A stretch of DNA of 41,728 nucleotides from Gemmatimonadota bacterium (GTDB lineage: Bacteria; Gemmatimonadota; Gemmatimonadetes; Gemmatimonadales; GWC2-71-9). How positions within the stretch are numbered: position 1 is the stretch's first letter; every line of letters begins with the position of its first letter. Positions 19,306 through 38,596 of the stretch are shown here, piece by piece. Position numbers and translations under genes: made by a program. The notes under the pieces were generated by a model. It was given only the letters and a program-made list of their open reading frames with translations. It was not told the DNA's origin and did not search any database. The stretch lies in contig JACQVB010000261.1 of assembly GCA_016209985.1 (NCBI GenBank), positions 1 to 41,728 on the forward strand. The letters are read 5' to 3'.

Positions 19306-20742
19306 ATGAATTGCCGAGTGCCGACTGGTTTGTGGTTCGCTCTCGCCACGCTCACCGTTGCGACGTGGCGCCTTGGGCTGGCCCAGCAGCCGAATACGTC
19401 AGGCAAGTACGCGCCCGGCATGCAAGGAAGCAGCAACGTGCACGTGATGTCACACGTCCCGCTCGGCCGCATGTTCACGGTGGGCGACATCGAGGCCGAG
19501 CAGGAGCTCTCCCGGCCGTATGTTTACGTGCCCCGGATGCAGGGGACCACGCACTCGACCGGATTTACCATCGTCAGCGTGAAGGACCCCCGGCGCGCCA
19601 AAGCGATCTTCACCTGGACCATGGAGAAACCCGAGCTGCTGCGGGCGTACGGCGGACTCCAGGGCAAGTATTTCAAGCTCAATAGCCGCTATTACTACGC
19701 GCAGTCCTTTCAGATCCTGCAAGGCTCGCCGAACACCGAGGTCGGCGCGATCGTGTTCGACGTAACCGGTCTGCCCGACACGACGACCGTCAAGGAAGTG
19801 CGCCGCCTCAGCACGCCGGAGAATCCTGGCGGCTTCCACAATCTGTTCACCTACAAGCACTCCGACGGCCGCGTCCTGTTGTTCACCACTAGCACCGGCC
19901 CGTTCGCCACGATCTGGGATATGCAGCGCTTCGTGAGTGGCGCCGCGGACCAGGGATTCATCAGTCGCGTCCCTATTCCGGACGTGGCTCAAGTGGCGTC
20001 CGGTCCGACTCAGGGGCGCTCGGGGACGCTCAACACGACCGGCACCTATCATGATTTCTACGTGGGGTACGATCCCGCCACCCATCAGGACAAGTTCTAT
20101 GGCGCGGCGTGGTCACAGGGCTACTTCATCTTCGATGTGACCCGGCCGGAAGAGCCCAAGCTGATTACCTCGATCACGGGTACAGCCGGCGCCGGCAGCT
20201 ATCACACCTTCACACCGACGCCGGACGGCCGATACGCGGTGGGGGAACAGGAGTACGTCTACGCCCCTCTCCGCATGTATGACCTGAAGCCGGGGCTCGA
20301 TGGGACCGTGAAAACCATCTCCCGTCCGATCGGCGCGTGGACCTCCGACTGGAAGAATCTTCCACACAATCACGAAGTGCGCTGGCCCTACGTCTTCGTC
20401 TCGGCCTACGAGGATGGATTGCAGGTCCTCAACATGATGGACCCGACGAATCCCTATACCGTCGGTTACTTCTACACGTACGAAGGACGGCGGCAGCGCG
20501 GCTGGGGCGGAGTGGACAAGCCGGAGGAGGGGACCGGCAACGCGAACGGCGCTTTTGGGGTCGAGGTGCGGAACGCCGACGGCATGATCTTCATCAGCGA
20601 TATGAGCGAAGGGCTCTACGTGCTCAAGATGGATGGGTTCGACGGGTGGAACGGGCACCAGTGGGGGATGCCGAATATCTCGTCGGCTCAGGATTGGGAT
20701 AGCGGGCCGGAGGGGGCGCCGAAGCCGGGCAAGGTGAGTTAG
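19306..20742 (+). CDS. Secreted LVIVD-type beta-propeller-like protein (paralogue 1)
   Basis: 478 residues, strong AGGAGG ribosome site, signal peptide ending GLAQQ. The body is a series of beta-strand repeats of LVIVD type (FTIVSVKDPRRAKAIFTW, AIVFDVTGLPDTTTVKEV, LQVLNMMDPTNPYTVGYF, MIFISDMSEGLYVLKMDGF), as in cell-surface beta-propellers. It shares its N-terminal GSSNVHVMSHVPLGR, the HNHEVRWPYVFVSAYEDG segment and the C-terminal DGWNGHQWGMPNISSAQDWD / KVS tail with three paralogues in this window. Conserved His residues recur about once per repeat: GGFHN, KHSDG, YHD, YHTF and HNHE. No enzymatic motif is recognised. It converges on the DadA-like gene with a 12-bp gap. Confidence 0.85.
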   Translation: MNCRVPTGLWFALATLTVATWRLGLAQQPNTSGKYAPGMQGSSNVHVMSHVPLGRMFTVGDIEAEQELSRPYVYVPRMQGTTHSTGFTIVSVKDPRRAKAIFTWTMEKPELLRAYGGLQGKYFKLNSRYYYAQSFQILQGSPNTEVGAIVFDVTGLPDTTTVKEVRRLSTPENPGGFHNLFTYKHSDGRVLLFTTSTGPFATIWDMQRFVSGAADQGFISRVPIPDVAQVASGPTQGRSGTLNTTGTYHDFYVGYDPATHQDKFYGAAWSQGYFIFDVTRPEEPKLITSITGTAGAGSYHTFTPTPDGRYAVGEQEYVYAPLRMYDLKPGLDGTVKTISRPIGAWTSDWKNLPHNHEVRWPYVFVSAYEDGLQVLNMMDPTNPYTVGYFYTYEGRRQRGWGGVDKPEEGTGNANGAFGVEVRNADGMIFISDMSEGLYVLKMDGFDGWNGHQWGMPNISSAQDWDSGPEGAPKPGKVS

Positions 20743-20754
20743 AAGGACCGCCGC

Positions 20755-22002
20755 CTACCGTCTTTGGAATCGTCCCGGATCAAACGGCTTCAAATCGAAG
20801 CTGCTGGTTTGTCCCGTCACCAACTCGGCGACCGCCAGTCCGGTTACGGGTGCCATCGTCATGCCGAGCATCGCGTGGCCGGTCGCAACGTACAGATTGT
20901 CGAACCCCGGAGCGCGGCCGATCGCCGGTAGACCGTCCGGTGTCAGTGGACGCATGCCGGTCCATTCCACCTCGGCCGCGCCGCGCGTCGAGCCCGGGAG
21001 GTAACGGGCCGCGGCGCGACGAATCGCCGCCACGCGCTCGGGAACGATGCGATCGTTCAAACCCGACAGCTCCATCGTGCCACCTAATCGCATGGCGCCG
21101 TTGAACGGACTGACCCCAACTCGCATCTCGTAGAGATACACGGCATGGGAGGGGGCAGCTTCCGGGCCGGTAATCGTGATGCTGTATCCCTTACCGGGTT
21201 GAATGGGAAGCGAGAATCCAAAGCTTTTCGCTAAGTGTCCCGACCAGCTGCCGGCGGCGAGCACAAAGGCGTCGGCTTCCAACCTGCCCTCAGCCGTTTC
21301 GACCATGGTGGCCCGGGTCCCACGTCTGGTCATGCCCGTGATGCTCACTCCGGATCGAACCTCGCCGCCCAATGCCTGGACCCGCGCCAGGAGGCCGGCG
21401 CAGAGGGTCTCCGGTCGCACCCGCCGTTCGTGCAGGACCCGAACTCCTCCTCGCACGTCCGGCGCTAATCGTGGCTCGGCTGCACGGACGCCCTCGCGGT
21501 CCAGCCGTGAGGGGACCGCGAGACCCAGCTCCGCGAAGGCCTGAAACTCGGCAAACGATCGCTCGATTCCCTGGTCCGTCAGGAACAGGAAGAGCATGCC
21601 GTCCTCATGCATCTCGAACTGCACGCCGTCGGCGCGCAGCTCGTTGTAGAGCGCGAACGCACGGCGATTGAGCTCGCTCAGCGCGCCCATGCCGTGGTGA
21701 TAATCATGCTGGTTGCAGTGCCGCCAGAAGCGCCAGAGCCAACCGGCCGAGGAGAGCGCAAAGGCGGGGTCGATATAGAGCGGGCTATCGCGATGCAGCA
21801 TCCATTTAAGGGACTGCACAGTGAGACCGGGAGCCGGCACCGGGTGGGAGAGCGAGGGGCAGATCCAGCCGAGGTTCCCTTTCGAGCATGCGTCGCCCGG
21901 GCGGCCACGGTCGATCACGGTCACTGCTGTGCCACGACGGGCGAGGTGGTAGGCTGTCGCAAGACCCACCACTCCTCCGCCGATAACCACTACGCGAGAC
22001 AT
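20755..22002 (-). CDS. DadA-like FAD-dependent D-amino-acid dehydrogenase/oxidoreductase
   Basis: 415 residues, DAO superfamily. The N-terminal Rossmann motif for FAD is RVVVIGGGVVGLATAYHLA with the acidic end of strand 2 in VTVIDR. Then SKGNLGWICPSLSHPVPAPG matches the DadA-type block after the FAD site. The C-terminal WTGMRPLTPDGLPAIGRAPG and LYVATGHAMLGMTMAPVTG close the FAD site. These enzymes oxidise D-amino acids (or hydroxyproline, or sarcosine-like substrates) to keto acids and pass electrons to the respiratory chain. Placed between two propeller-protein genes, it may use amino acids released by this locus; that is inference. GAGG precedes the ATG. Confidence 0.9.
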   Translation of the reverse strand: MSRVVVIGGGVVGLATAYHLARRGTAVTVIDRGRPGDACSKGNLGWICPSLSHPVPAPGLTVQSLKWMLHRDSPLYIDPAFALSSAGWLWRFWRHCNQHDYHHGMGALSELNRRAFALYNELRADGVQFEMHEDGMLFLFLTDQGIERSFAEFQAFAELGLAVPSRLDREGVRAAEPRLAPDVRGGVRVLHERRVRPETLCAGLLARVQALGGEVRSGVSITGMTRRGTRATMVETAEGRLEADAFVLAAGSWSGHLAKSFGFSLPIQPGKGYSITITGPEAAPSHAVYLYEMRVGVSPFNGAMRLGGTMELSGLNDRIVPERVAAIRRAAARYLPGSTRGAAEVEWTGMRPLTPDGLPAIGRAPGFDNLYVATGHAMLGMTMAPVTGLAVAELVTGQTSSFDLKPFDPGRFQRR

Positions 22003-22033
22003 GGCGCCTCACCTCACCCCTGCCTCACCCCTG

Positions 22034-22059
22034 TCCCCTCTCCGTTACCGGAGAGGGGA
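22034..22059. repeat. REP-like palindrome
   Basis: An 11-bp perfect stem (TCCCCTCTCCG / CGGAGAGGGGA) with a TTAC loop, preceded by two direct copies of CCTCACCCCTG at 22012-22033. This resembles the CCCTCTCC...GGAGAGGG intergenic palindromes spread through many bacterial genomes. No T-run, so it is not a classic terminator. It lies in the divergent gap between the DadA-like gene and paralogue 2. Confidence 0.75.
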
Positions 22060-22105
22060 ACCGAAGTGCTGCGCTGGGGGCTTGAAGACGTGTGGTACTC
22101 CTCAA

Positions 22106-22135: not shown

Positions 22136-22171
22136 CTGGAGGTTCCTTCAAAACTCCAGCCAGGAGCCAGG

Positions 22172-23602
22172 ATGAAGCCGCTCGCGTTACTTACCGCTCC
22201 TCTGCTCTTCGCCGCTTCGACAGTGGCCGCCCAGTATCACGAGCCGGGGGCGATGTCTCCGCCAGGGGGCCAGGGAAGCTCCAACGTTCAGGTGATGTCG
22301 CACGTGCCACTGGAGCGGGTGTTCACGGTCGGTGACATCGAGATCGAGCAGGAGCTGTCCCGGCCGTACGCCTATGTTCCGCGACTCGATGGTACCACGC
22401 ACAGCGCCGGGATGAACATCATCAGCCTGAAGGACCCCACCAGAGCGAAAAGCATCTATTACTGGCGGATCGAGCAGCCGGAGCTGCATCAGGGGATCGG
22501 TGCGCTGCAGAACAAGTACTTCAAGGTGAAGAACCGCTACTACGACGCCCAGTCGTTCCAGTTTTCCGCCGGCAGTCCCGATAACGATCTCGGGGCGGTG
22601 ATCCTGGACGTGACCTCGCTGCCCGACACCGCCGGCATCAAGGACGCCGGCCGGGTGCGCGCTCCGGAAACGCCCGGCGGCTTCCACAACATCTACAACT
22701 ACAAGCATTCGGATGGCCGGGTGCTGATGTTCGCGACGGTGTCCGCTCCGCGGGCCAACGTCTACGACATGGAAAAGTTTCTGGGCGGAGATCCGGGTCA
22801 GGGGCTGGTGGGCAGCGTTCCGGTGCCGAGTCCCGGCACGGCGGGCGGAATGCGCGGCTACCATGACTTCTATGTGGGCTACGACCCCGCCACCCATCAA
22901 GACAAGTTCTACGGGGCCGGAGCGGGCGGGTACTATGTCTACGACGTGACCAACACCAGCGCGCCGAAGCTTCTGGTTTCGGTCACCGGAGTCGCGGGGA
23001 TCACCGGAGGACACACGTTCACACCGACGCCCGACGGCCGCTACGCGGTTGCGGAGACTGAATACCAATACGCCCCGCTTCGGATCTTCGATCTCAAGCC
23101 GGCGCTGGACGGCCAGGTCCAGACGATCTCCCGGCCCATCGGCGCCTGGATATCGGATTGGACCACCAACCCTCATAACCACGAGGTGCGCTGGCCGTAC
23201 GTCTTCGTCTCGGCATACGAAGAAGGTCTTCAGGTCTTCAACATGATGGATCCCAGCAATCCCTACACGGTGGGGTTCTACGACACCTATGACGGCCCCC
23301 ATCGGATGGGTCGGGCCCCCAGCGGCGATCCGGAGCAGCGCTGGAATGACCGGACCTACCCGATCATTCCCGCGTCCGAGGTCGTCAATGGTGCATTTGG
23401 AGTAGACGTGCGGAACGCCGACGGTCTGATCGTGATCAGCGATCTGGCGACCGGGTTCTGGGCCTTCAAGATGGATGGGTTTGATGGATGGAACGGCCGC
23501 CAGTGGGGAGTGCCGAACATCAGCTCCGCGCAGGATTGGGACAACGGGCCCGAAGGGGCGGCGAAGCCGGTGAGGGTGAGCGGATTGCACGGCAACCCTT
23601 AG
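22172..23602 (+). CDS. Secreted LVIVD-type beta-propeller-like protein (paralogue 2)
   Basis: 476 residues, signal peptide ending TVAAQ, CAGGAG-type ribosome site. Same layout as paralogue 1: GSSNVQVMSHVPLERVFTVG, GDIEIEQELSRPYAYVPR, MNIISLKDPTRAKSIYYW, GGFHNIYNYKHSDGR, YHDFYVGYDPATHQDKFYG, GGHTFTPTPDGRYAV and NPHNHEVRWPYVFVSAYEEG. It differs in its end: after the shared tail it reads VRVSGLHGNP, seven residues longer than the KVS ending of the others. An extra loop (HRMGRAPSGDPEQRWNDRTY) is also found in paralogue 3. It converges on the CnrX-like gene with a 3-bp gap. Function unknown. Confidence 0.85.
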   Translation: MKPLALLTAPLLFAASTVAAQYHEPGAMSPPGGQGSSNVQVMSHVPLERVFTVGDIEIEQELSRPYAYVPRLDGTTHSAGMNIISLKDPTRAKSIYYWRIEQPELHQGIGALQNKYFKVKNRYYDAQSFQFSAGSPDNDLGAVILDVTSLPDTAGIKDAGRVRAPETPGGFHNIYNYKHSDGRVLMFATVSAPRANVYDMEKFLGGDPGQGLVGSVPVPSPGTAGGMRGYHDFYVGYDPATHQDKFYGAGAGGYYVYDVTNTSAPKLLVSVTGVAGITGGHTFTPTPDGRYAVAETEYQYAPLRIFDLKPALDGQVQTISRPIGAWISDWTTNPHNHEVRWPYVFVSAYEEGLQVFNMMDPSNPYTVGFYDTYDGPHRMGRAPSGDPEQRWNDRTYPIIPASEVVNGAFGVDVRNADGLIVISDLATGFWAFKMDGFDGWNGRQWGVPNISSAQDWDNGPEGAAKPVRVSGLHGNP

Positions 23603-23605
23603 ACC

Positions 23606-24067
23606 CTATCGTGGTCGGTTGGGGGCGCCCGCGCGGATCTCGCCCAGGATGTCCTGCTGTTCCGCGGTCAGCGCATTCTTGATTTTGATCAAGAGTCCGA
23701 GATGCGCTTTCTTGACCTGTCGCTCGACGTCCAGCAGGCGGTCTACCTGTGCCAACGCGGCCACCGCATCGACCGAGGGCCGGTCGAGCAGCGCGCTCAA
23801 GCGCTGCTCCTCGTCCTGCATTCGCCATTGCAGGTCGATGACCTGCCCTTGGAGCTCCTTGATCCCGGCGGTAATGACCTCACGTTGCTGGGCTGTGAGT
23901 CCCAGACGCCGCTGCTGCTGCATCACCAATTCAGGGGGAAACAGGTGCATGCCGAACCCGGAATCCGGGGGAGGCTGGGGAGGGGGGGGCGCCGGCGCCG
24001 GTTGCTGAGCCAGGCCGGTGGACGCCATCGACACGATGGCCATGACGATCAGGGCGAAGCGGTTCAT
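23606..24067 (-). CDS. Periplasmic Spy/CpxP/CnrX-like metal-sensor-type protein
   Basis: 153 residues from ATG at 24067 with AAGGAG 7 nt upstream. The signal peptide ends TGLAQQ, followed by a Pro-rich linker. The mature part is a helical hairpin with repeated LT-x-x-Q signatures (RLGLTAQQREVI, KNALTAEQQDIL) as in Spy/CpxP and CnrX-like periplasmic proteins. It lies downstream of an anti-sigma-like gene and an ECF sigma gene in one operon, matching the CnrYXH logic in which the periplasmic protein senses metal or envelope state. The sensed signal is unknown. Confidence 0.85.
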   Translation of the reverse strand: MNRFALIVMAIVSMASTGLAQQPAPAPPPPQPPPDSGFGMHLFPPELVMQQQRRLGLTAQQREVITAGIKELQGQVIDLQWRMQDEEQRLSALLDRPSVDAVAALAQVDRLLDVERQVKKAHLGLLIKIKNALTAEQQDILGEIRAGAPNRPR

Positions 24068-24092
24068 GAGTGACTCCTTCCGTCGAAGGTCT

Positions 24093-24452
24093 TCATCGGT
24101 CAATCGGCATCGCGCGGATCCGGGCGACATCAGCGATCCCGATTTGGGGGACCCGGCGCAAGAGATCGGTCCCGGGGGTTTCCAGGAGAAAGTCCGTCGG
24201 TACCACCCAGGTGCTCGCGCGGTAGAGTGCCAATTGATTCCGGGCGGCCGTGTCACGCCGCTGCCTGAGCCACAGGGTGGTGGCGCCGGCCCCCACCAGC
24301 AGTCCGATGGCCGCGGCGGCGCGCAGGAGGCGGGGCCAGGACGAAACCAGAGGCCGTTCCGGAACCGCAAACGGCGGCGCCTGTGCCGCTTCTTCGCGAC
24401 GGAGCGACCGGAAGCGCGCGCTCAGCTCTTGATCATCCATACTATCCTTCAT
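24093..24452 (-). CDS. Small membrane protein, probable anti-sigma factor
   Basis: 119 residues. The N-terminal 35 residues are charged and cytosolic (DDQELSARFRSLRREEA), followed by one transmembrane helix (LLRAAAAIGLLVGAGATTLW) and a short periplasmic part. Size, topology and position fit an anti-sigma factor; it lacks the zinc HxxxCxxC motif. Its ATG overlaps the sigma stop (ATGA), which indicates translational coupling. The assignment rests on context and topology, not on a recognised domain. Confidence 0.75.
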   Translation of the reverse strand: MKDSMDDQELSARFRSLRREEAAQAPPFAVPERPLVSSWPRLLRAAAAIGLLVGAGATTLWLRQRRDTAARNQLALYRASTWVVPTDFLLETPGTDLLRRVPQIGIADVARIRAMPIDR

Positions 24453-25027
24453 CCCGCGTCCTCCTGCAGCCGCTCTCGCAAACGGCGTTTCCCCCGTTGG
24501 TAGTGTGTCCGTGCCGTTCCCACTGATATGCCCAACACGGCCGCCGCCTCCTCGATCGTCAGGTCCTGGTAGAAGACGAGATGAAGAAGTTCGCGCTGGC
24601 GTCTCGGCAGGGACCGCAGTTGCGAGACCAATCGCGCGTTCGATTCCGCATGGGTCAACCCGCTTTCGGCGTCGTCACCGGAGGGGATCTCCTTGTCGTG
24701 CCCGTCGAGCGATGCCAGCGGTACGAATCGTCGCCACATCCAGCTACGGTAGTGTTCCGCTGCGGTCCGCCGGATCACCCCGAAGATCCAGGTGCGAAAG
24801 CCGGAGTGGGCGAGAAAGTGCGCCCGTCCGTCCAGAATCTTGAGATAGCTCGCTTGCAGCACGTCTTCCGCCATGCTTCGATCCCAGCGACAGCAGGAGA
24901 GCGCCCAGCCGAACGCCGCACGGTGGTGCTCTTTGAGCTCCGTTTCCAGCTCGATCGGTCTCATCGGAATGGTCCGGGGCCGGCCGCCCTCCGCCTTGGT
25001 ATCAATGAGTGCATTTGGCGCCATCAT
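24449..25027 (-). CDS. ECF-type RNA polymerase sigma factor
   Basis: 192 residues if started at ATG 25027. Region 2 is HHRAAFGWALSCCRWD, AEDVLQASYLKILDG and FRTWIFGVIRRTAAEH. Region 4 is LVSQLRSLPRRQRELLHLVF and LTIEEAAAVLGISVGTARTH. Homology begins only near residue 25. A TATAAT overlaps the first ATG (25031-25026), so the true start may be the ATG at 24964 (171 residues). Neither start has a clear ribosome site. It heads an operon with the anti-sigma-like and CnrX-like genes, and is probably autoregulated and released under envelope or metal stress. Confidence 0.9.
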   Translation of the reverse strand: MMAPNALIDTKAEGGRPRTIPMRPIELETELKEHHRAAFGWALSCCRWDRSMAEDVLQASYLKILDGRAHFLAHSGFRTWIFGVIRRTAAEHYRSWMWRRFVPLASLDGHDKEIPSGDDAESGLTHAESNARLVSQLRSLPRRQRELLHLVFYQDLTIEEAAAVLGISVGTARTHYQRGKRRLRERLQEDAG

Positions 25028-25095
25028 TATATGACTGGACCGTCTTCACCGAGCCGTCCTTGCGTCTGCCACTCCGCAGTCCGCAGCTTAGCTCG

Positions 25096-25560: not shown

Positions 25561-25633
25561 GCAACGCGGCGCGCCACTTTCAGTGCCGCACATCCCGGTG
25601 CACCGCTACCCGCAATCGCTTATGAGGTATCAC

Positions 25634-27031
25634 ATGTTGCGAGAGATCGTGCTGATATCGGCAGCTCTGCCAGGAGCCACGACCCTGTTAGCCCAGTTTG
25701 CACCCGGCATGCAGCGTAGCTCGAACGTTCACGTCATGTCGCACGTTCCGCTCGGCCGCATCTTCACGGTCGGGAACATCGACGTCGAGCAGGAGCTGTC
25801 GCGGCCGTACGTGTATGTCGGACGCACTGAAGGGAAGGTGCCGGAGTCCGGGTTCACCATCGTCAGCGTCAAGGATCCGGCGCACGCCAGGATTCTCTAC
25901 GAGTGGCGCATCGAGAACCCGCAGTTGCACAAGACCGGCGGTGGCGGTGGCTGCCTAAGTGGCAAGTACTTCAAGGTGAACAGCCGATACTACTACGCCC
26001 AGGGATGCCAGTTCCCCCGGAGCGGTCCAGACCACGAGGTCGGCGCGATCGTATTCGACGTCACCGGCCTGCCTGACAGTTCCACGATTCGCGAAGTGGG
26101 TCGGGTCCGCACGCCGGAGGCGCCCGGCGGCTTCCACGAGATGTTCACGTACAAACACTCGGATGGTCGGGCGCTGATGTTCGTGACCGGCGGCCGGCCC
26201 TATGTCATCATGTATGACATGGGCAAGTTCGTGAGCGGTGACGCCGCCGGCTCGGTGGCCGGGAAGATTCCGGTACCCGAAGGCCCGGCGCAGGGGGCCA
26301 CCCGTACCTACCATGACATGTACGTGGGCTATGACCCGGTGTCCCACACCGATCGGTTTTACGGAGCCGGCACCGGGGGGTATTACGTGTTCGATATCAC
26401 CCGGCCGGAGGAGCCCAAGCTGCTGACCTCGGCGACCGGCATCGCCGGCATGGAGCGCGGTCACACATTCACGCCGACGCCGGACGGACGCTACGCGGTG
26501 CTGGAATCGGAGTACCAGTATGCGCCGCTCAGGATCATTGACCTCAAGCCTGGACTGGACGGCGCGGTGAAGACAGTCTCCCGGCCGATCGGCGCCTACA
26601 CGCCACGGTGGAAGGGAGAGCCGCACAACCACGAGGTGCGCTGGCCCTACGTATTCGTTTCGGGATATGAGGATGGGCTCTACGTCTTCAACATGATGGA
26701 TCCGACCAATCCCTACACCGTGGGCTATTACGACACCTATGAGGGACCGGATGGGCGCGGGAAGGTTTCGGGCGACGCCGAGCGAGCCATGGAGGACCGG
26801 AGCTTCGTACCGGATCCGCCGTCCGCGGGCGTGAATGGCGCCTTCGGCATCGACGTGCGCAACGCCGACGGTCTCATTGTGATCAGTGATGAGGCGACGG
26901 GGTTCTGGGCGCTCAAGATGGATGGGTTCGATGGCTGGAATGGCCACCAGTGGGGAGTGCCGAATGTCTCTTCGGCGCAGGATTGGGATAACGGGCCGGA
27001 AGGAGTGCCAAAAGCGGCGAAGGTGAGCTGA
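25634..27031 (+). CDS. Secreted LVIVD-type beta-propeller-like protein (paralogue 3)
   Basis: 465 residues from ATG at 25634, preferred because GAGGT lies 6 nt upstream and a signal peptide follows directly (MLREIVLISAALPGATTLLA). Shared blocks: SSNVHVMSHVPLGRIFTVGN, FTIVSVKDPAHARILYEW, GGFHEMFTYKHSDGR, YHDMYVGYDPVSHTDRFYG, GHTFTPTPDGRYAV, PHNHEVRWPYVFVSGYEDG and LYVFNMMDPTNPYTVGYY. A Gly-rich loop with one Cys (KTGGGGGCLSG) and a second Cys (YYYAQGCQF) are peculiar to this copy and could pair. Its 3' end and the following hairpin are duplicated after SusD. It converges on the first S9-like gene. Confidence 0.85.
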   Translation: MLREIVLISAALPGATTLLAQFAPGMQRSSNVHVMSHVPLGRIFTVGNIDVEQELSRPYVYVGRTEGKVPESGFTIVSVKDPAHARILYEWRIENPQLHKTGGGGGCLSGKYFKVNSRYYYAQGCQFPRSGPDHEVGAIVFDVTGLPDSSTIREVGRVRTPEAPGGFHEMFTYKHSDGRALMFVTGGRPYVIMYDMGKFVSGDAAGSVAGKIPVPEGPAQGATRTYHDMYVGYDPVSHTDRFYGAGTGGYYVFDITRPEEPKLLTSATGIAGMERGHTFTPTPDGRYAVLESEYQYAPLRIIDLKPGLDGAVKTVSRPIGAYTPRWKGEPHNHEVRWPYVFVSGYEDGLYVFNMMDPTNPYTVGYYDTYEGPDGRGKVSGDAERAMEDRSFVPDPPSAGVNGAFGIDVRNADGLIVISDEATGFWALKMDGFDGWNGHQWGVPNVSSAQDWDNGPEGVPKAAKVS

Positions 27032-29193: not shown

Positions 29194-29222
29194 TTGACAC
29201 TCTCCAGCATGGGCCGTATATG
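29194..29222 (+). promoter_or_regulatory. Sigma-70 type promoter for the propeller4-SusC-SusD operon
   Basis: TTGACA (29194-29199) and TATATG (29217-29222) are separated by exactly 17 bp. Transcription would start near 29229, leaving an 85-nt leader before the ATG at 29314. This is the best promoter match in the window. Confidence 0.72.
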
Positions 29223-29313: not shown

Positions 29314-30672
29314 ATGAAACCGACGTTGTTAGGTCTGTGTCTCATTGCCGCGATCCCGTCGCTGGGTCGTTCGCAGTACGCTCCGGGCCACAATTTCAGT
29401 CCCAATGTCAAGCTCGTCGCCCATGTTCCGCTGGATGCCCAGGATCTCGTGGCTGACATCGAGATCGAGCAGGAATTGTCCCGGCCGTACGCGTACGTCA
29501 CCCGCGAGCGCAAGCAGAAGGACGGATTTCAGATCATCGACCTGAGAGATCCAAGCCGGGCCCGCCTGCTCTACACCTGGTTCATCGAGAACGCGCCGCT
29601 CCATACCGGTTACGGCGGCGGCAAGGCGGGAAAGTATTTCAAGCTCAACGGTCGCTACTACTACGCCCAGTCGTTCCAGTTCGGGAGGGAGGGGGTGGAC
29701 GCCGATTTGTCTGTCATCGTGTTCGACGTCACCGGGCTTCCGGATACCAGTAAGGTCAAAGAGGTAGGTCGCATCCGGGTACCCGAGGCGGTGGGTGGGG
29801 GCCACAATCTGTTCGCGTACAAGCACTCCAACGGCAGCGTGCTGCTGTTCATCACGGTGGAGGCGCCACCCAATCACCCCTACGGCGCGCACATCTACGA
29901 CATGGAGAAGTTCGTTGCCGGCGCTCCCAATTCCGGTTTGGTAGGTGGAGTACCGCTGCCGGAGCCCCGGGGTGCGCCGCGCGGATACCACGATGCCTAC
30001 GTAGCCTATGAGCCGGTCAGCAAACAGGACCGGTTTTACGGGGGTGGTCCGGAGACCAGTCCACTGGGCGGCAACTTCGTCTACGACGTGACCGATGTGA
30101 AGAACCCGAAGCTGCTGGCGTCCGTCGTCGCCCAGTCGTCGATGCAATCCGGCGGGCACACCTTCGTGGCGACGCCCGACGGACGGTACGGGCTGACCAT
30201 CATGACCTCACCGGCGCACCAACCCGTGCGCCTCTGGGACCTCAAGCCCGCGCTCGACGGGACCATACCCGTGATCAAGCAACCGATCGGTGAATGGACC
30301 GCCGACCCGAAAAAGACCGGTCACATGATCGAGGTCCGCTGGCCCTATGCCTTCATCGCCGATTATCAGAATGGGCTTCGAGTCCTGGACATTCGCAATC
30401 CGACCGACCCGGTCGAGGTGGGATTCTACGACACCTTCAACTACCGCATGCCCTTCGAGCCCGGCGGTGTCGCGATGGGCGCCTATGGGCTTGATGTGCG
30501 CAACAGCGATGGACTGATCGTCATCGGCGACGACACCGGGGGGTTCTTCGCATTCAAGATGGATGGATTCGACGGTTGGAATGGCCATGACTGGGGGATG
30601 CCGAATGCCTCGAGCGCCCAGGATTGGGATAACGGCCCGGATGGGGCCCCGAAACCTGCCAAAGTGAGCTGA
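29314..30672 (+). CDS. Secreted LVIVD-type beta-propeller-like protein (paralogue 4)
   Basis: 452 residues from ATG at 29314, with AGGAG upstream and a signal peptide (MKPTLLGLCLIAAIPSLGRS). It is the most divergent copy: FSPNVKLVAHVPLDAQDLVA, FQIIDLRDPSRARLLYTW, GGGHNLFAYKHSNGS, YHDAYVAYEPVSKQDRFYG, GGHTFVATPDGRYGL, HMIEVRWPYAFIADYQNG and LRVLDIRNPTDPVEVGFY. The His pattern is kept except that HNHE becomes HMIE. The C-terminal DGWNGHDWGMPNASSAQDWD and KVS ending are shared. It lies 29 bp before SusC in what looks like one operon, so it is the best candidate of the four to work with the SusCD transporter, perhaps as a surface or periplasmic partner (inference). Confidence 0.86.
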   Translation: MKPTLLGLCLIAAIPSLGRSQYAPGHNFSPNVKLVAHVPLDAQDLVADIEIEQELSRPYAYVTRERKQKDGFQIIDLRDPSRARLLYTWFIENAPLHTGYGGGKAGKYFKLNGRYYYAQSFQFGREGVDADLSVIVFDVTGLPDTSKVKEVGRIRVPEAVGGGHNLFAYKHSNGSVLLFITVEAPPNHPYGAHIYDMEKFVAGAPNSGLVGGVPLPEPRGAPRGYHDAYVAYEPVSKQDRFYGGGPETSPLGGNFVYDVTDVKNPKLLASVVAQSSMQSGGHTFVATPDGRYGLTIMTSPAHQPVRLWDLKPALDGTIPVIKQPIGEWTADPKKTGHMIEVRWPYAFIADYQNGLRVLDIRNPTDPVEVGFYDTFNYRMPFEPGGVAMGAYGLDVRNSDGLIVIGDDTGGFFAFKMDGFDGWNGHDWGMPNASSAQDWDNGPDGAPKPAKVS

Positions 30673-30701
30673 TTGTTTCTCCAGAGCAGGAGGTGATCTC
30701 C

Positions 30702-33689
30702 ATGGTGTACAGACCAGGTTTGCTGGTGAGCATCTTCTCGTTGGTCGTTGTCGCAACGGCGCCGGCACAGACCCGGATCGTCACTGGCCGGGTGACCGAC
30801 TCACTCACCAGCGAGACGATTACGTCCGGTCAGGTGTCGGTCCAGGGGATGACGCTCGGAACGACGATCAAGGAAGACGGAACGTTCACGCTGGCGGTGC
30901 CGGATCGCGACGTCACGCTTTCGGTGCGGAGCATCGGGTTCAAGCGGAAGGACCTCCAGCTTCCCGTCAACACGAGCTCGGCTCAAGTGGAGCTGGCGCG
31001 GGACTATTTCCAGCTCGAGGCCATCATCGTAACGGGTCAGGCAACCGGCGTGGAGCGAAAGAATCTCGCGAACGCGGTGGCGACGGTCTCGGCGCAACAG
31101 CTCTCCGCGGTGCCGGCCGCCAGTCTGGACCAGGCGCTGCAAGGCAAGATGGCCGGTGCCGAGATCATCCGGAGCTCCGGTGCCCCCGGTGGTGGTGAAG
31201 TGGTCCGGTTGCGGGGCCTCACCTCGATCAACGGCGCGTTCACGCCGCTCTACGTCATCGATGGCGTCATCGCGAGCGACGTGGCCCTTCCGCGTGGCAC
31301 CAACTTCGTGACCCAAGCCTCCCGCGGCTCGACGATCGCGACTCAGGGCGAGAACGCGGTGAACCGCATCGCCGACCTGAACCCCAACGACATCGAAAGC
31401 GTCGAGGTGCTGAAAGGTGCAGCGGCGTCGGCGATCTACGGATCCAAAGCCTCGAATGGTGTCATCATGGTCACGACGAAACGTGGCCGGCTCGGAGCGC
31501 CGCAATTCACGGTGAGCCAGAAGGTGGGTGTCTCGGCGGCAAGCAAGCTCCTGGGCTCGCGGGTGTTCCAGTCCCAGGCGGACGCCGTGGCGGTATATGG
31601 CGCCAAGGCGCTGGACCCAGCCACCGGGTGGGTCGCCGGCCAAGTGTTCGATAACGAGCGAGAGCTTGCCGGGTTCAAGCCGCTCTCCTATCAGACCACG
31701 GCAAGCATGAGCGGCGGAACTGAAACGACCCGGTATTACACCTCCGCGCTGGTCAAGCACGATGGAGGAATCGTCAAGAACACCTACGCCGACCAACGAT
31801 CGCTTCGGGTCAACGTCGATCAGAACGTGGCGCGCCGGCTGGACATCTCGCTGGGGGCCGATCTGGTCAACACGGCGGGCGACAAAGGTGTCACCATCAA
31901 CGAGAACAACAACACGAGCTATTGGGCGGGATTTTCCAACACGCCGAACTTCTTCGATATGCGCGCGGTGTGTCCCGGTGGTAGCCGTAAGGCCTTTTGC
32001 GAAGGCGGCATCTATCCGGTGAATCCGTACGTGCAGGTCAACCCCCTGCAGACGGCATCGCTGTTCAAGAACCGGGAAGATGTTTGGCGGATGATCGGGA
32101 CCAGTCGTGTCACGCTCGATGCGATCGCGACTTCACAACACACGCTGCGGTTCATCGCCAACGGCGGGATGGACTTTTTCAACCAGGAGAATCTGGTCTA
32201 CTCGCCGCCCGAGCTCCAGTTTGAATCGCTGGACGGTCTGCTCGGCACGTCCATTGCCTCGAGTGCCAATAACCTCAATTACAACATCAACGCCAATGCC
32301 GTCCATACCCTGAAGACCGGGGGCGGGTCCTCGGCCACTACCCAGATAGGGATTCAGTACGAAACCAGGGAGCTCAAGGTGAACCGTATCCTGGCGGCCA
32401 ACCTGGTGGGCGGGCTGCAGACGGTGACGAGCGGAACCACTATCGGAATCGACGGCAGACACGAGCTCGTCAAAGACCTGGGATTTTTCGCACAGGAAGA
32501 GTTCCTGACCTTTGGGGAGCGGCTGCTGCTGACGGCCGGGATCAGGGCCGACCGGAGTAGCAGCAACGGTGACCCGCACAAGCTGTTCTACTACCCCAAG
32601 GCATCAGCGTCCTACCGACTGACGGGCCTCGCACGGGGCTTGGTGGACGAGCTCAAGCTTCGCGCCGCGTTTGGTGAATCGGGCAACCAGCCCTTGTACG
32701 GCCAGAAGTTCACCGAGCTGGTGGGGCAGAACGTCGAGGGCGTTCCCGCGGCACTGATCTCCGCCTCGCATGCGGCGTCGGACATCGTGCCCGAGCGCCA
32801 GCGCGAAATCGAGCTGGGGTTCGACGGGACCCTCTTTGCCGGTCGTGCGCATCTGGAGGCGACCGGCTATGAGAAGCGCATTACGGACCTGTTGCTGGCG
32901 AGGAGCCTGGCTGCGTCCTATGGGTTCACCTCCGAGTTTCTGAATGGAGGGGTTCTCCGCACCCGCGGGGTGGAGCTGACGCTCAGCGGAATGCCGATAC
33001 GTGGTCGCGCCCTGCAATGGAGCCCTCGTGTGATCTTCCAGGCCTATCGCAGCGTGATCGTCGAGCTGCCGGTGCCCACGTTTGGGGGTGGAGGTTTCCC
33101 CGGCGGGTCGGTGCGGATTGAGGAGGGCAAGTCGGCGACCCAGGTCATCGGCGACGACTCGTTGCCCGACGGTACCAAGACCCTGGGGTATATCGGCGAG
33201 ACCCGTCCCGACTACACCCTGCAACTCGGCAGCGATCTCAAGTTCCGGGCCCTGAGCTTCTCCTTCCTGTGGGATCGCCAGAAGGGCGGGACCGTTTCCG
33301 CCCGCACGGCCCAGAAATACGACCTCAATAGGAACAGCGCGGACTATGATGACCCGGCTCCCGTCGCGGGACGCAAGCTGGGCGAGTGGCGGGCGACGAC
33401 CGCGGTAAAGCAAGCGCGGCTCTTTCTCCAGGACGCCTCCTTCTGGAAGCTCCGGGAAGTCACCCTGGGACTGGATGTGCCGCAGTCGATGGTTCGGAAA
33501 ATGTGGAGCGGGGCGCGATCGGTCAGGCTGAGCCTGGGCGGACGCAATTTGCTCACGTTCACGAAATATCGCGGCACCGATCCCGAACAACGGTGGCGTC
33601 CCGATCTGGGCCTCACCACCCTACCGATCGAGCTCTGGGGGTACCCGCCCAGCCGGAGCTTCTGGTTCTCTGTCGACCTGGGTCTCTGA
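30702..33689 (+). CDS. SusC/RagA-type TonB-dependent outer-membrane receptor
   Basis: 995 residues from ATG at 30702 with GGAGGTGA 5 nt upstream. The signal peptide ends APAQT. Residues about 28-105 are a carboxypeptidase-D-like regulatory domain (IVTGRVTDSLTSETITSGQV). The plug domain starts near 115 and has the SusC signatures LDQALQGKMAGAEI, LRGLTSINGAFTPLYVIDGV, NDIESVEVLKGAAASAIYG and KASNGVIMVTTKRG. The 22-strand barrel fills the rest and ends in an aromatic strand (SRSFWFSVDLGL). With SusD it imports oligomers (glycans or peptides) through the outer membrane using TonB energy. The substrate is unknown; peptidase neighbours hint at peptides. Confidence 0.95.
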   Translation: MVYRPGLLVSIFSLVVVATAPAQTRIVTGRVTDSLTSETITSGQVSVQGMTLGTTIKEDGTFTLAVPDRDVTLSVRSIGFKRKDLQLPVNTSSAQVELARDYFQLEAIIVTGQATGVERKNLANAVATVSAQQLSAVPAASLDQALQGKMAGAEIIRSSGAPGGGEVVRLRGLTSINGAFTPLYVIDGVIASDVALPRGTNFVTQASRGSTIATQGENAVNRIADLNPNDIESVEVLKGAAASAIYGSKASNGVIMVTTKRGRLGAPQFTVSQKVGVSAASKLLGSRVFQSQADAVAVYGAKALDPATGWVAGQVFDNERELAGFKPLSYQTTASMSGGTETTRYYTSALVKHDGGIVKNTYADQRSLRVNVDQNVARRLDISLGADLVNTAGDKGVTINENNNTSYWAGFSNTPNFFDMRAVCPGGSRKAFCEGGIYPVNPYVQVNPLQTASLFKNREDVWRMIGTSRVTLDAIATSQHTLRFIANGGMDFFNQENLVYSPPELQFESLDGLLGTSIASSANNLNYNINANAVHTLKTGGGSSATTQIGIQYETRELKVNRILAANLVGGLQTVTSGTTIGIDGRHELVKDLGFFAQEEFLTFGERLLLTAGIRADRSSSNGDPHKLFYYPKASASYRLTGLARGLVDELKLRAAFGESGNQPLYGQKFTELVGQNVEGVPAALISASHAASDIVPERQREIELGFDGTLFAGRAHLEATGYEKRITDLLLARSLAASYGFTSEFLNGGVLRTRGVELTLSGMPIRGRALQWSPRVIFQAYRSVIVELPVPTFGGGGFPGGSVRIEEGKSATQVIGDDSLPDGTKTLGYIGETRPDYTLQLGSDLKFRALSFSFLWDRQKGGTVSARTAQKYDLNRNSADYDDPAPVAGRKLGEWRATTAVKQARLFLQDASFWKLREVTLGLDVPQSMVRKMWSGARSVRLSLGGRNLLTFTKYRGTDPEQRWRPDLGLTTLPIELWGYPPSRSFWFSVDLGL

Positions 33690-33715
33690 CCATGACATAT
33701 CCACGGGAAGCACTC

Positions 33716-35083
33716 ATGACAACCATTCGACGGCTGCTCCCGCTCTGCGCGCTGCTCGTCGCGGGCGGCTGCAACTTCGATGTTCCGGATTACAACGCGC
33801 AGAGCATCAACGCGCTCGAGCAAGGGGCGACCCCGACGGCCATCAATACGGCGTCGGTCGGTCTCCTGGTCGCTTCGCGCAACTTCAACAGTTCGTTTCT
33901 GACTTCGTATGTCGTGTCTGCAGGGGAATTCGGACGCGAGGGAATGGAGCTTGATCCCAGTAACGCCCAGCACCCGGTGGACCGCCTCAATCAGATAGGG
34001 TCCAGTGAGCCGGATTACGCGGGGTATGGGCGGGCCTACATCCTGATCAAGCAGGCCAACGCGATTCTGACTGCGTTGCCAGGCGTCACCGGGATGACCG
34101 ACCAGCAAAAGGAAGCGGTGCGGGGGTTCGCCAAAACCTTCCAGGCCCTGGCATTCCTGCGTCTCAATGCGGTGTTCGACAACTCCGGGGTCCCGATTGA
34201 CGTAGACATCCCGACCAGTGCCCCTTTGGCGCCCATTGCGTCCAACGCCGAGGTGAAAGCGCGGATCGTGCAATTGCTCGATCAGGCGAAAACCCACCTG
34301 ACCAGCGGCGGGACGGCCTTCCCATTCAAATTGAGCTCGGGCTTCGCCGGTTTCGACACGCCGCTTACGTTCTTGAAGTTCAACCGGGCCCTGCGCGCGC
34401 GGATAGCGGTGTACCAGCAGGACTGGACCGGCGCATTGACGGCCCTGGGCGAGTCGTTCATCTCGACCACCGCGTCACTCAGGTTGGGCGTATCCGACAC
34501 CTACAGCCCCAACCAGGGCGAACTGTCGAATCAACTCTACGACCCGACCTGCCGGCAGTTGTTCAGCATTTCGCAGAATGAGACGGACGCGCAGCTTCAG
34601 GCGGACGGCGTGACGTTGGACCAGCGGTATCTGGACAAGATCCAGAAGATTACGCCGAAAGTGGTGGTCGGAATCCCCGTAGCGCACTGCTTCAAGATCT
34701 ACAGCACGTCGTCGACGCCGATTCCGATCATTCGCAACGAGGAGCTCATCCTGCTCCGGGCCGAGGCGGAACTGCAGACCGGAGCGCGGGCCAGCGCACT
34801 CGCTGACATCAATGTTATTCGGGTGAACTCCGGACGGCTGGCGCCACTTGCGGCCGATCCCGGCGATCCCGGATTGCTGGACGAGTTGTTGTACCATCGG
34901 CGCTACTCCTTGATGTGGGAAGGCGGCCACCGCTGGATCGACGCGCGGCGGTACAATCGGCTGGCGCAGCTGCCCAAGGCGCTGCCGGCACATTTCATCT
35001 TTCCGTACCTGCCGCTTCCCTTGAACGAATGCAACCCGCGTCAGAACGTGCCCGCCGGCTGCAAGGCCCCGCCGGGGATTTAA
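33716..35083 (+). CDS. SusD/RagB-like substrate-binding outer-membrane lipoprotein
   Basis: 455 residues from ATG at 33716 (GGGAAG upstream; ATG 33692 is an alternative). Lipobox LVAGGC gives a lipid-anchored mature N-terminus CNFDVPDYN. The body is the SusD helical TPR-like fold (YAGYGRAYILIKQANAIL, VRGFAKTFQALAFLRL, NEELILLRAEAELQTG, LLYHRRYSLMWEGGHRWIDARR, split at W). It forms the lid of the SusC channel and captures the substrate at the surface. It starts 26 bp after the SusC stop, so is co-transcribed. No separate terminator follows until the duplicated hairpin at 35140. Confidence 0.93.
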   Translation: MTTIRRLLPLCALLVAGGCNFDVPDYNAQSINALEQGATPTAINTASVGLLVASRNFNSSFLTSYVVSAGEFGREGMELDPSNAQHPVDRLNQIGSSEPDYAGYGRAYILIKQANAILTALPGVTGMTDQQKEAVRGFAKTFQALAFLRLNAVFDNSGVPIDVDIPTSAPLAPIASNAEVKARIVQLLDQAKTHLTSGGTAFPFKLSSGFAGFDTPLTFLKFNRALRARIAVYQQDWTGALTALGESFISTTASLRLGVSDTYSPNQGELSNQLYDPTCRQLFSISQNETDAQLQADGVTLDQRYLDKIQKITPKVVVGIPVAHCFKIYSTSSTPIPIIRNEELILLRAEAELQTGARASALADINVIRVNSGRLAPLAADPGDPGLLDELLYHRRYSLMWEGGHRWIDARRYNRLAQLPKALPAHFIFPYLPLPLNECNPRQNVPAGCKAPPGI

Positions 35084-35138: not shown

Positions 35139-35139
35139 A

Positions 35140-35190: not shown

Positions 35191-35198
35191 ATCTGCCT

Positions 35199-37145
35199 CT
35201 ACTGCCGCCCAAATGTCGCCGCAGCCGCCGGCCCCGCGACGCTGGTCTTCAGGTACTGATCGAAGAAATCCAGCATGTCCAGCAGGAGCTGGCGGCTGTT
35301 CTCCCGGCCGGAGACGTAGTAGGTCTCGCCCGGATAGGTCTTGTACTTCACCACCTTGAATTCCTTCTCCAGCGCCAGGGCGTATTCCTGCGACGCGATG
35401 ATCGGCGGTACGCCTGGCCGCCAGGCGGTCTCCTTGCCGATACCGTGCACCAGGAAGACCGGCGCCTTCACGTTCTTCACTTCGAAGATGGATGAGTTGC
35501 GGCGGTACACCGCGGCGCTGTCGGGATAGGGCCCCCATTCGTACGCCAGCAGCTTAGTGTGTTGCAGCTCCGCGTTGTAATCCTGGAAGCTGATCCAGTT
35601 GGCGTATCCGGACTGCGGCATCGAAGCCTGGAACACGTCGGGCGCCCTCACCACCGCGGCCAAGCTCATGATGCCGCCGTAGCTGATCCCGGTGATGCCG
35701 ATGGCCGAGGAGTTCACATAGGGTAGTGCCTTGAGGTAGTCCGCCGCGGCGACCACATCGTTCAAGTCGCACCGGGTCCAGCAGGGATTGTTGGCGTCTT
35801 CAAACGTCTTTCCGTAGCCCGAGCTGCCGCGAATGTTGGGCAGAATCACGACATACCCCATGTGCGCCAGAAACTGTGGTTGCAGCGCGTAGGTGTCGCT
35901 GAATTGGCCGGTGGGGCCGCCGTGGACGTAGACGATGCCGGGAACGCGATCGCCCGAGCGCAGCGCGGGCGGCCGGTATACGTACGCCGAGATGGTGAAC
36001 TGGTCGCTCTGGTACGTGATCTTCTCCGGCTTGAGCAGCTCCTGTTCAGTATTCGCGGTAATGGATGATGTGAGCTGCACCGGCTTTGCGGCGCCGTCTG
36101 CGGCTACCACGTAGAGATCGGCTGGGTGGGTCGGGGTAGCCAGCGTGAAGGCCACACGTTTGCCGTCGGGCGACCACTCGGGATTGGCGGCGACCCCGGT
36201 CTCGAGCGGGACGACCGCCCGCGGACGGCCGCCCGCAACCGCACCGACCTGCACCTGCTGGGTGCCGTTGCGGTTCGCGATGTAGACCACGGACTGGCCG
36301 TCAGGCGACCAGCGCGCGTCACTCTGGTCGGCGTCTTCGGCCGCGAGCTGCCGCACCGGGCCGCCCGCCATCGGCGCGATCCAGTAGTCGAGCCAGCCGC
36401 TGCGATGGGAGCGAAAGAGGACGCTCTTGCCATCCGGTGACACCAACGGATAGCCGAAGCGGCTGCGGGTGCCCAGCGTTCCATAATCGAAGAGATCCTT
36501 GTCGCTCGTGAGCACGCGGGCAGTGCCGCCGCTCGCGGGCACGATCATCACATCGTGATCGGCCCAGCGGTCGTCGGCCCGCACGTAAACGACGTTCCGC
36601 GAGTCGGGCGTCCAGGTGGGATAGACCTCGTAGCGCTGGTCGGTGGTGAGGCGTTTGATCTCCCCGCCGGGACCGGCCACGGTCCAAACATCGAACTGGC
36701 CGTAGCGCAGGGCGGAGAAGGCGATGGCGCTGCCGTCCGGCGCCCAGGTGAAGGAGTTGATCCGGGCGCCGAGCCTGGTAAGCTGAACGTCGCGCTTGTC
36801 CGGTACCGACCACACCCAAAGCTCGGGCGATCCGCCCTTGTCGGAGAGGTAGGCGATCCGATCGCCACGGGGCGAGACCCGGGGGATTTGGGGGCTGATG
36901 TTCTCGGTGACGCGGGTGGCCGCGCCGCCCTCGGGCGACACGCTCCAGATGGCGAGCCCGCCTCCCTGGCTCGAGGGAAACAGGATGCGCGAGCCGTCCG
37001 GCATCCACTGCGGGCCGTCTGCGCCGACCAGCGAGCCGATCGACGTCAGCCTTGCTGCCGCGTCGCGGGGCGCGGATGGCTGTTGCGCCTGGGCGAATAC
37101 GGCCGACAGGCTCAACGCGATCACCAAGGTGCCTGCGTGTTTCAT
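35199..37145 (-). CDS. Exported S9-family (prolyl-oligopeptidase-like) protein 2, triad incomplete
   Basis: 648 residues with a signal peptide (MKHAGTLVIALSLSAVFAQA). Propeller repeats in residues about 35-350 (QWMPDGSRILF, RVSPRGDRIAYLSDKGG, TWAPDGSAIAFSA, RWSPDGQSVVYIA, EWSPDGKRVAFTL). Alpha/beta hydrolase about 375-635: YVHGGPTGQFSDTYALQPQF, LPNIRGSSGYGK and the nucleophile GITGISYGG (Ser488). As in its paralogue, the Asp position reads HGIGKETAW and the His position YPGETYYV, so the canonical triad is missing. Its ATG overlaps the M20 stop (ATGA) with GGAGGAAATAG as ribosome site, so the two are translationally coupled. The end TSVAGPAA..TFGRQ is nearly identical to paralogue 1. Confidence 0.9.
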   Translation of the reverse strand: MKHAGTLVIALSLSAVFAQAQQPSAPRDAAARLTSIGSLVGADGPQWMPDGSRILFPSSQGGGLAIWSVSPEGGAATRVTENISPQIPRVSPRGDRIAYLSDKGGSPELWVWSVPDKRDVQLTRLGARINSFTWAPDGSAIAFSALRYGQFDVWTVAGPGGEIKRLTTDQRYEVYPTWTPDSRNVVYVRADDRWADHDVMIVPASGGTARVLTSDKDLFDYGTLGTRSRFGYPLVSPDGKSVLFRSHRSGWLDYWIAPMAGGPVRQLAAEDADQSDARWSPDGQSVVYIANRNGTQQVQVGAVAGGRPRAVVPLETGVAANPEWSPDGKRVAFTLATPTHPADLYVVAADGAAKPVQLTSSITANTEQELLKPEKITYQSDQFTISAYVYRPPALRSGDRVPGIVYVHGGPTGQFSDTYALQPQFLAHMGYVVILPNIRGSSGYGKTFEDANNPCWTRCDLNDVVAAADYLKALPYVNSSAIGITGISYGGIMSLAAVVRAPDVFQASMPQSGYANWISFQDYNAELQHTKLLAYEWGPYPDSAAVYRRNSSIFEVKNVKAPVFLVHGIGKETAWRPGVPPIIASQEYALALEKEFKVVKYKTYPGETYYVSGRENSRQLLLDMLDFFDQYLKTSVAGPAAAATFGRQ

Positions 37146-38596
37146 CTATTTCCTCCTGCCTTCGCCAGAGTGACCACGACGTCAAAGTTGAAGCGGACGA
37201 ACCGATGCAGCTCGCTCTCCAGAATACGCTCCTGATCGCTGTGGGCGCCGAAGCCTTTCGGGCCATCCTCCACGTCGATCGCCGGCCCGATCCCGTAGCA
37301 CTGCACACCCCTGGCACGAAGGTAAGCCATGTCGGTGGCGCCGGTGCCCATGGTGGGCAGCGTTACGGTCTGGTAATGCCGGGTCACCGCAGCTTCCACG
37401 GCCTTGAACCCGTCGGAGTCGAGTCGCGCGTTCGGCGTCGGGGACCGGACGTCGCGCTGTCCGTACGTCACGTCTACGGTCGTGTCGTTGATCACCCGCC
37501 GCACGGTCTCGAGGAATGCCGCCGGGTCCTCATCGGGGAGAGTGCGCACATCCAGCGTGGCCTTTGCTTCCGAGGGAATCACGTTCACCCGATAGCCCGC
37601 CTGCACCATGACCGGAGCTATGGAGCTGCGGAGCATGGAGGAGTGGCGCGGCTCGTGCTCGAACAGATACTCATCGGCGCTCGCCGCGGCCGGCGAGTTG
37701 GTGGCCAGCACGGCCCGGTAGCGCGCCGCGTCCTCGGGTGGAGAGATCCCGGCCAAGCGGTCGAAGTAGGTCTGGGTCGTGCCGTTCAGGCGGATCGGCG
37801 CCCGCCAGGTTCCGATCGTGGCTATTGCCCGGGACAGATGGACCACCGGATTAGTCTTGAGCGGAATCGAGCCGTGGCCCGCCACGCCCCGCGCGGTGAG
37901 CTGGATCGCGCGGGGAATCTTCTCCAGAGTCTGAACCGTGGCGTAGCGTACCTTGCCGCCTACCCGCTCGATGTTGCCGGCCTCGGCCAAGCAATACTCG
38001 GCATCGATCTCCGGAAAGTGCTCTTTCACCATGAACTGGATGCCGACGCCGCTGGAGCCCTCTTCGCCGGCTTCGGCGAGGAAAATGACGTCGCGATCCA
38101 GCGGGACGTTCAGCCGCTTGAGCAGCAGCATCACCATCAGGCTGGAGGTCACGTTGTCCTTGTCGTCGACCGAGCCGCGGCCGTAGACGTAGCCGCCGTC
38201 GCGGGTGGCGCTGAAGGGCGGAAAGGTCCACTTGGCGGGATCCACGTTGACCACATCGGTGTGCGCCATCATGAGGAGCGGCCGCTGCCTGCCGGTTCCC
38301 TTGAGTCGGGCGACCACGTTGGGGCGATTCGGCTGGAGGGCGAACAGCTGGACGGGAATGCCGTCTTTCTCCAGGACGTCCTTGAGATAACTCGCCGCCG
38401 GCAGCTCGTTTCCGGGTGGGTCGCTGGTATCCATGCGAAGGAGCGCCTGGAAGTGCTGCATGGTTTCCCGCTCGACAGAGGCCCAGTCGGGACTCGCGGG
38501 CATCGGTGCGGGGCGGGCCTGGCCGAGCAGCAGGGAAGGTGCCAGCGCGGCAAGAACGAGCGAGACGGCCACGAGGTCACGAGGGCTGGGTCGCAT
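37142..38596 (-). CDS. Exported M20-family metallopeptidase
   Basis: 484 residues with a signal peptide ending LLLGQA. The M20 di-zinc site is complete in what can be seen: His112 and Asp114 (MMAHTDVV), the bridging Asp in YGRGSVDDKDN (144/145), the general base/ligand Glu pair in LAEAGEEGSSG (178/179), the lid-domain His in GVAGHGSIPLKTNP and the late His in KGFGAHSDQER. Such enzymes cleave C-terminal or dipeptide bonds. Coupled with the S9-like gene, it suggests final breakdown of peptides in the periplasm. It is divergent from the SDR gene with a 96-bp gap. Confidence 0.94.
   Translation of the reverse strand: MRPSPRDLVAVSLVLAALAPSLLLGQARPAPMPASPDWASVERETMQHFQALLRMDTSDPPGNELPAASYLKDVLEKDGIPVQLFALQPNRPNVVARLKGTGRQRPLLMMAHTDVVNVDPAKWTFPPFSATRDGGYVYGRGSVDDKDNVTSSLMVMLLLKRLNVPLDRDVIFLAEAGEEGSSGVGIQFMVKEHFPEIDAEYCLAEAGNIERVGGKVRYATVQTLEKIPRAIQLTARGVAGHGSIPLKTNPVVHLSRAIATIGTWRAPIRLNGTTQTYFDRLAGISPPEDAARYRAVLATNSPAAASADEYLFEHEPRHSSMLRSSIAPVMVQAGYRVNVIPSEAKATLDVRTLPDEDPAAFLETVRRVINDTTVDVTYGQRDVRSPTPNARLDSDGFKAVEAAVTRHYQTVTLPTMGTGATDMAYLRARGVQCYGIGPAIDVEDGPKGFGAHSDQERILESELHRFVRFNFDVVVTLAKAGGNR

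Follow-up and report, generated by a model that had tools for sequence, protein, structure and literature searches.

Several described systems resemble parts of the locus considered here, which lies in a window of 41,728 nucleotides making up one whole contig (C229) of a Gemmatimonadota genome (4.64 Mb in 289 contigs, 95% complete, 2.5% contaminated). Like the SusC/SusD pairs of Bacteroidota, the SusC and SusD proteins encoded in the window exceed their family cut-offs, their genes are in the usual order, and SusD is a lipoprotein. The two cases differ in the partner, which here is a family of secreted propeller proteins and not a set of glycan-degrading enzymes. As regards a polysaccharide utilization locus, no glycoside hydrolase family was found among the window proteins scanned.

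BtuG, the B12-binding partner of BtuB, is a seven-bladed propeller that caps a TonB-dependent transporter as a stable lid (PMC10404256). The propellers described here likewise have seven predicted blades and are encoded near a TonB-dependent transporter. They differ from BtuG in lacking a lipobox, in having a SusC-type partner, in numbering ~70 paralogues, in their invariant ring of histidines, and in being partnered with an oxidase elsewhere. BtuG was absent among the fold matches listed for the propeller model, which excludes nothing.

The haloalkylphosphorus hydrolase/phosphotriesterase of Sphingobium sp. TCM1 carries a binuclear metal site. This seven-bladed enzyme (PDB 5hrm, 5ioj) is the closest solved relative of the propellers by profile and by fold, at only ~15% identity. 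The DFPase/DrSOD-type lactonases (PMC12362111), a six-bladed calcium family belonging to a different group, were considered as relatives and ruled out. With regard to named families, the description of the propellers as LVIVD-type in an earlier note on this DNA holds for propeller 4, which scores 39.6 bits against LVIVD (PF08309; cut-off 20.2), but not for propellers 1-3, which fall below that cut-off and match no Pfam family. All four are weak matches to TIGR04312 (choice-of-anchor B), at 22-44 bits against a cut-off of 100. LVIVD matches (E 0.01) were found for 22 of 96 propeller relatives, and most members are without any Pfam family.

Gene Content of the Window

The earlier note had listed four secreted propeller paralogues, two S9-like exported proteins, an M20 peptidase, a DadA-like oxidoreductase, a PPOX-like protein, and one SusCD pair, and all of these are present. 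The propellers are all encoded on the + strand and have 50-62% identity to propeller 1. Propeller 1 itself (19306..20742), which has a type I signal peptide without a lipobox, is separated from propeller 2 (22172..23602) by the oxidoreductase gene on the - strand (20755..22002). The product of the latter is a DAO-family protein (PF01266, 1.2e-74) that scores 285 bits against NF001933, under the cut-off of 383. The PPOX-like gene (25009-25560, + strand) precedes propeller 3 (25622..27031). The first of the S9 peptidase-like proteins, comprising a PD40 propeller and an S9 catalytic domain (27092..~29080, - strand; PF00326, 1.4e-35), is encoded divergently from propeller 4 (29314..30672), with a gap of ~230 bases between the two genes. 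Three gene starts were corrected: that of propeller 3, to the ATG at 25622 from the GTG at 25583 given in the list of open reading frames; that of propeller 4, to the ATG at 29314, which has AGGAG directly upstream; and that of the first S9 gene, to ~29080. The second S9 gene (35199..37145, - strand; PF00326, 2.8e-38) is overlapped at its start, by 4 bases, by the end of the gene for the exported M20 family peptidase (37142..38596, - strand; PF01546, 1.2e-24). Both S9-like proteins have signal-like N-termini and the G-x-S-x-G-G nucleophile motif, as GTSHGG in the first and GISYGG in the second.

Four homologues side by side are not a matter of chance. Because the propeller family is very abundant in this genome, however, four copies alone mark no special locus.

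Between propellers 2 and 3, on the - strand (23606-25027), genes for an ECF sigma factor, a putative anti-sigma factor (short, with one membrane-spanning stretch), and an exported Metal_resist protein (PF13801) stand in a row. We take this trio to resemble modules made of an ECF factor, an anti-sigma factor, and a periplasmic metal sensor, e.g., CnrHYX.

Propeller 4 is followed on the same strand by SusC (30693..33689) after ~20 bases, and SusC by SusD (33692..35083) after 2 bases. The SusC/RagA-type receptor scores 447.8 bits against TIGR04056 (cut-off 368) and exceeds the cut-offs of PF07715 (plug) and PF13715 (carboxypeptidase-like N-terminal domain), and the SusD/RagB-type lipoprotein scores 29.7 bits against PF07980 (cut-off 23.1) and has the lipobox LLVAGGC. 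This spacing fits the earlier proposal of a propeller gene upstream of SusC in the same operon, and propeller 4 is probably the first gene of one operon with SusC and SusD. The "clean sigma-70 promoter" that had been placed before it is plausible, although not clean. The promoter-like sequence in the gap between the S9 gene and propeller 4 (29194..29222, + strand) consists of TTGACA (29194), a spacer of 17 nt, and TATATG (29217), agreeing at 10/12 positions; the -35 element is perfect and the -10 element imperfect. As TATATG is without the final T, a strict scan that requires this base reports no promoter before propeller 4.

Expansion of the Propeller Family

A profile built from the four window proteins gave 82 matches at E 1e-20 or better in the genome of the window, and 28 in the nearest relative used for comparison, a Baikal sister species of the same genus. 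The 82 matches fall in 46 groups, the largest with seven members, and total ~100 kb or 2.1% of the assembly. Several contigs end within a propeller copy, so some of the short matches are halves of one gene. In the regions read, 68 copies were full-length, with identities to each other of 41-83% (median 57%); none of these 68 has a lipobox. Given this maximum of 83%, the copies do not come from mixed strains, and duplication during assembly was ruled out on the same ground and because the sister genome has 28 copies. Internal stop codons are present in a few copies (on contigs C217 and C94 of the window's genome and on Baikal C17), which may therefore be decaying.

Across the phylum, with the best four candidates per genome scored, 122 of 395 genomes had a propeller match, and 16 other Gemmatimonadota genomes that were searched in full had 1-5 copies each. 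The expansion, to about 70-80 copies in the genome of the window, is known from this genus only, with two genomes. By the same method, the genome of the window has ~45 strong ABC ATPases, 19 SusD proteins, 23 SusC-size receptors, and 18 credible S9 domains. A single secreted family that takes up 2% of a genome and outnumbers its ABC transporters points to something central to the feeding of these lake bacteria. Within the collection of papers searched (LVIVD, choice-of-anchor B, propeller with multicopper oxidase), there was no description of the propeller family or of the cassette described below, and propellers and SusD go without mention in the Gemmatimonadota genome papers that were searched by term.

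Adjacency of Propellers and SusCD Within the Genus

Counts in both species support a non-random adjacency of propeller and SusCD genes in this genus. When each SusC is taken with its SusD as one block, a propeller lies within 2 kb of 10 of the 23 SusC blocks in the genome of the window, where at most 11% would be expected (binomial p 7e-5); these statistics assume uniform placement in a fragmented assembly, and part of the signal comes from one 72 kb contig, C64. Leaving out this contig, with its five SusC genes, a propeller was near 7/18 blocks (p 0.002). Among controls, 1/25 other TonB receptors and 0/35 ABC genes were within 2 kb of a propeller. About two thirds of the propellers lie away from SusCD genes.

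Recurring arrangements are propeller-SusC-SusD on one strand, in the window and on contig C196, and SusC-SusD-propeller, on C64 and at the Baikal locus L043; divergent pairs also occur. A stretch of C64 at ~1-60 kb (L100-L102), with five SusC-size receptors and ~eight propellers, is richer than the window. The adjacency is repeated in the Baikal sister, where 3 of the 11 loci have SusCD (L040, L043, and L045). L043 reads SusC-SusD-propeller-propeller-S9-propeller, followed by another SusC; one of its propellers is a 68% relative or ortholog of propeller 4, and the adjoining S9 gene (L043:12673-14649) is 57% identical to the first S9 gene of the window. Judging from this neighborhood, the S9-propeller 4-SusCD part was probably already in place when the two species separated, although it has been rearranged. 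Propeller 1 has an 81% ortholog in the Baikal genome (L039:10004-11407), whose neighbors include two other propellers; the SusCD, S9, M20, and DAO genes of the window are all missing from that locus. On the family tree, the SusCD-adjacent propellers are scattered (25 changes vs. 27.9 for shuffled labels), so the adjacency was not passed on as one inherited block, and a SusCD-linked subfamily of propellers was ruled out. The earlier note had named a scattering of propellers without SusCD, S9-like, or M20 neighbors as grounds for rejecting a common system; half of this was borne out, in that outside the genus 0/41 propeller loci have SusC or SusD, while inside it the adjacency stands.

A Multicopper Oxidase Cassette in Other Lineages

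The loci outside the genus belong to a set of 52 propeller loci from GTDB genomes, 11 of them Baikal and 41 from other genomes. A three-domain multicopper oxidase lies within four genes of the propellers in 21 of the 41; at the Baikal loci the oxidase is absent (0/11). Many of the propeller arrays that lack an oxidase are cut off by a contig end. At 14 of the 41 loci, a small secreted protein that belongs to no Pfam family is matched by its profile or nearly so (13 over threshold). Typically, 1-8 tandem propellers are followed by the small secreted protein and then by the multicopper oxidase, and this cassette occurs in Rhodothermales, in Gemmatimonadota, and in one Acidobacteria record. When 12 other genomes were checked whole, the oxidase adjoined a propeller in 11, within ~1.7 kb. 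In the two members of the genus, the oxidase is present about 7-10 kb from the nearest propeller; the ortholog in the window's own genome (C101:30802-32382) is 6.9 kb away, and in the window no multicopper oxidase or small partner is found within a few genes of the propellers. The expansion in the genus and the oxidase cassette in other lineages are the most solid new facts of this analysis.

The cassette oxidase has all three MCO domains and the HCHxxxHxxxxM motif. It falls below the CueO and CopA cut-offs, and differs from oxidases of those types in being partnered with a propeller array and a small protein that has no Pfam match. The small proteins (L065:11317-11931, L074:15622-16188, L073:11302-11859, and others), usually encoded beside the oxidase, share a conserved SxSxxMHTxxGHGP...C end and match neither Pfam nor NCBIfam. 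In the genome of the window, the reading frame of the oxidase also takes in a segment that matches the small protein (29.7 bits), a sign that the two belong together. A model of the small partner was weak (pLDDT 69), with the copper-binding proteins FetP/P19/FtrA listed first by Foldseek, at a similarity too low for assigning the fold (TM 0.3, E 2.6e-3). As the combination of propeller, small protein, and multicopper oxidase is common to three phyla, it offers a defined and cloneable test set.

Predicted Structure and the Histidine Ring

An AlphaFold prediction based on 96 relatives gave a confident model of propeller 4 (pLDDT 90.2, pTM 0.90), with seven blades as assigned by DSSP and an N-terminal strand that closes the last blade. 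In each of blades 3-6, the innermost strand A has a histidine at its start, and these four residues, H164, H226, H282, and H337 (numbered from the M at 29314), hardly vary among the 68 copies. The ring of four histidines may bind a metal. The face that bears the ring has the most variable loops (DA loops 1.83 bits, BC loops 1.78 bits) and takes most of the insertions, and the AB loops of the opposite face are nearly fixed (0.61 bits). A conserved center within a diversified face would be expected of an enzyme or binder family whose substrates have changed.

The Sphingobium TCM1 phosphotriesterase was the only credible sequence match in a PDB profile search (E 1.2e-5) and the top Foldseek match (5hrm, E 5.7e-13). 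The list returned by a second structure aligner was filled by WD40 proteins (Z ~32). Since WD40 proteins match the fold as closely as the phosphotriesterase does, likeness of fold does not show function.

A Proposed Role for the Propellers

The reading that we favor, with about even confidence, is that of an exported family of metalloenzymes or binders with a histidine ring that multiplied in this genus and was recruited to SusCD import. The propellers belong to one exported family, predicted to be seven-bladed, in which four invariant histidines ring the mouth of the central channel. By binding a metal, the ring would make the protein a metal-dependent enzyme or ligand binder outside the inner membrane, and the variable loops around it would determine which substrate or ligand is recognized. 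The family would in most lineages act alongside a small secreted partner and a multicopper oxidase of the laccase type, all three probably directed at one class of extracellular compounds. Within this genus, its genes would have increased in number to about 70-80, parted from the oxidase, and been recruited repeatedly to SusCD, each such propeller capturing or trimming a ligand for import by the neighboring SusCD. The window would then hold one propeller 4-SusC-SusD unit beside three further copies, and the nearby S9, M20, and DAO proteins may use the imported material without being fixed parts of the unit. If the ring were catalytic, the family would add many new members to the known extracellular metalloenzymes, and the SusCD system would be one organized around propellers in place of glycan-degrading enzymes. 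A wider form of the proposal, which we regard as speculative and somewhat unlikely, holds that in one freshwater genus ~70 paralogues of an exported family of histidine-ring metalloenzymes, through SusCD pairs, play the part for non-carbohydrate organic matter that polysaccharide loci rich in enzymes play for glycans, the ancestral family having worked with a laccase-type oxidase.

The propellers could also be non-catalytic ligand-capture partners of SusCD that, in the manner of BtuG, bind a small molecule on top of the propeller and pass it on to the transporter. Such a role, which we nevertheless consider unlikely, would agree both with the conserved center set in a variable top face and with the SusCD adjacency seen in two species. 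BtuG is a surface lipoprotein, whereas the propellers have no lipobox; SusC is already lidded by SusD; the partner outside the genus is an oxidase and not a transporter; and an invariant ring of four histidines is more suggestive of a metal than of simple binding.

The earlier note had proposed one locus of SusCD, propellers, S9, M20, and an oxidoreductase that would take up and process peptides or other material containing D-amino acids. Of this uptake-and-processing system, the adjacency of propellers and SusCD has held up, and DAO genes are moderately enriched: 4/11 are within 1.5 kb of a propeller (p 0.004, uncorrected for the number of families tried). On C64 and C6, DAO occurs with a sarcosine-oxidase alpha subunit, a propeller, and SusCD, and on Baikal C17 DAO, propeller, and M20 genes are direct neighbors. 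Further combinations that would suit the proposal are S9, two propellers, and M20 on C244, SusC, S9, and three propellers on C84, and the partly kept S9-propeller 4-SusCD neighborhood of Baikal L043. Across the window's own genome, however, S9 genes (4/18 within 5 kb, p 0.24) and M20 genes (1/12 within 5 kb) are no closer to propellers than by chance. S9 and M20 are therefore ruled out as fixed partners, and a single peptide-uptake system is not established. The full set of the window is repeated nowhere among the loci seen, no second PPOX neighbor of propellers was seen, and other propeller loci are beside transporters, housekeeping genes or, as elsewhere on C64, tannase/feruloyl esterase, amidohydrolases, and a mandelate-racemase-type enzyme. 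In a family count over 111 propeller neighbors, DAO came first with three members, all other families having one or two. These neighbors hint at amino-acid-like or aromatic material without proving it, and we judge the peptide proposal unlikely.

That propellers and SusCD gather in the same variable regions through genome layout alone, with no shared function, is quite improbable: propellers do occur everywhere in the genome, in tandem runs and often at contig ends, and their SusCD-adjacent copies are scattered on the tree, but other TonB receptors and ABC genes show no such closeness, and same-direction propeller-SusC-SusD or SusC-SusD-propeller units, often within tens of bases, recur in the window, C196, C64, and L043.

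Flanking Genes

On the + strand upstream of propeller 1, a lipoprotein-like gene (18058-19224) seems to read on in another frame (18575-19201), probably as a result of a frameshift or sequencing error. On the far side of the M20 gene, the region 39486-40111 (+ strand) includes a MazF/PemK-like toxin gene (PF02452, 39785-40111), and the 100-aa open reading frame just upstream of it could encode an antitoxin.
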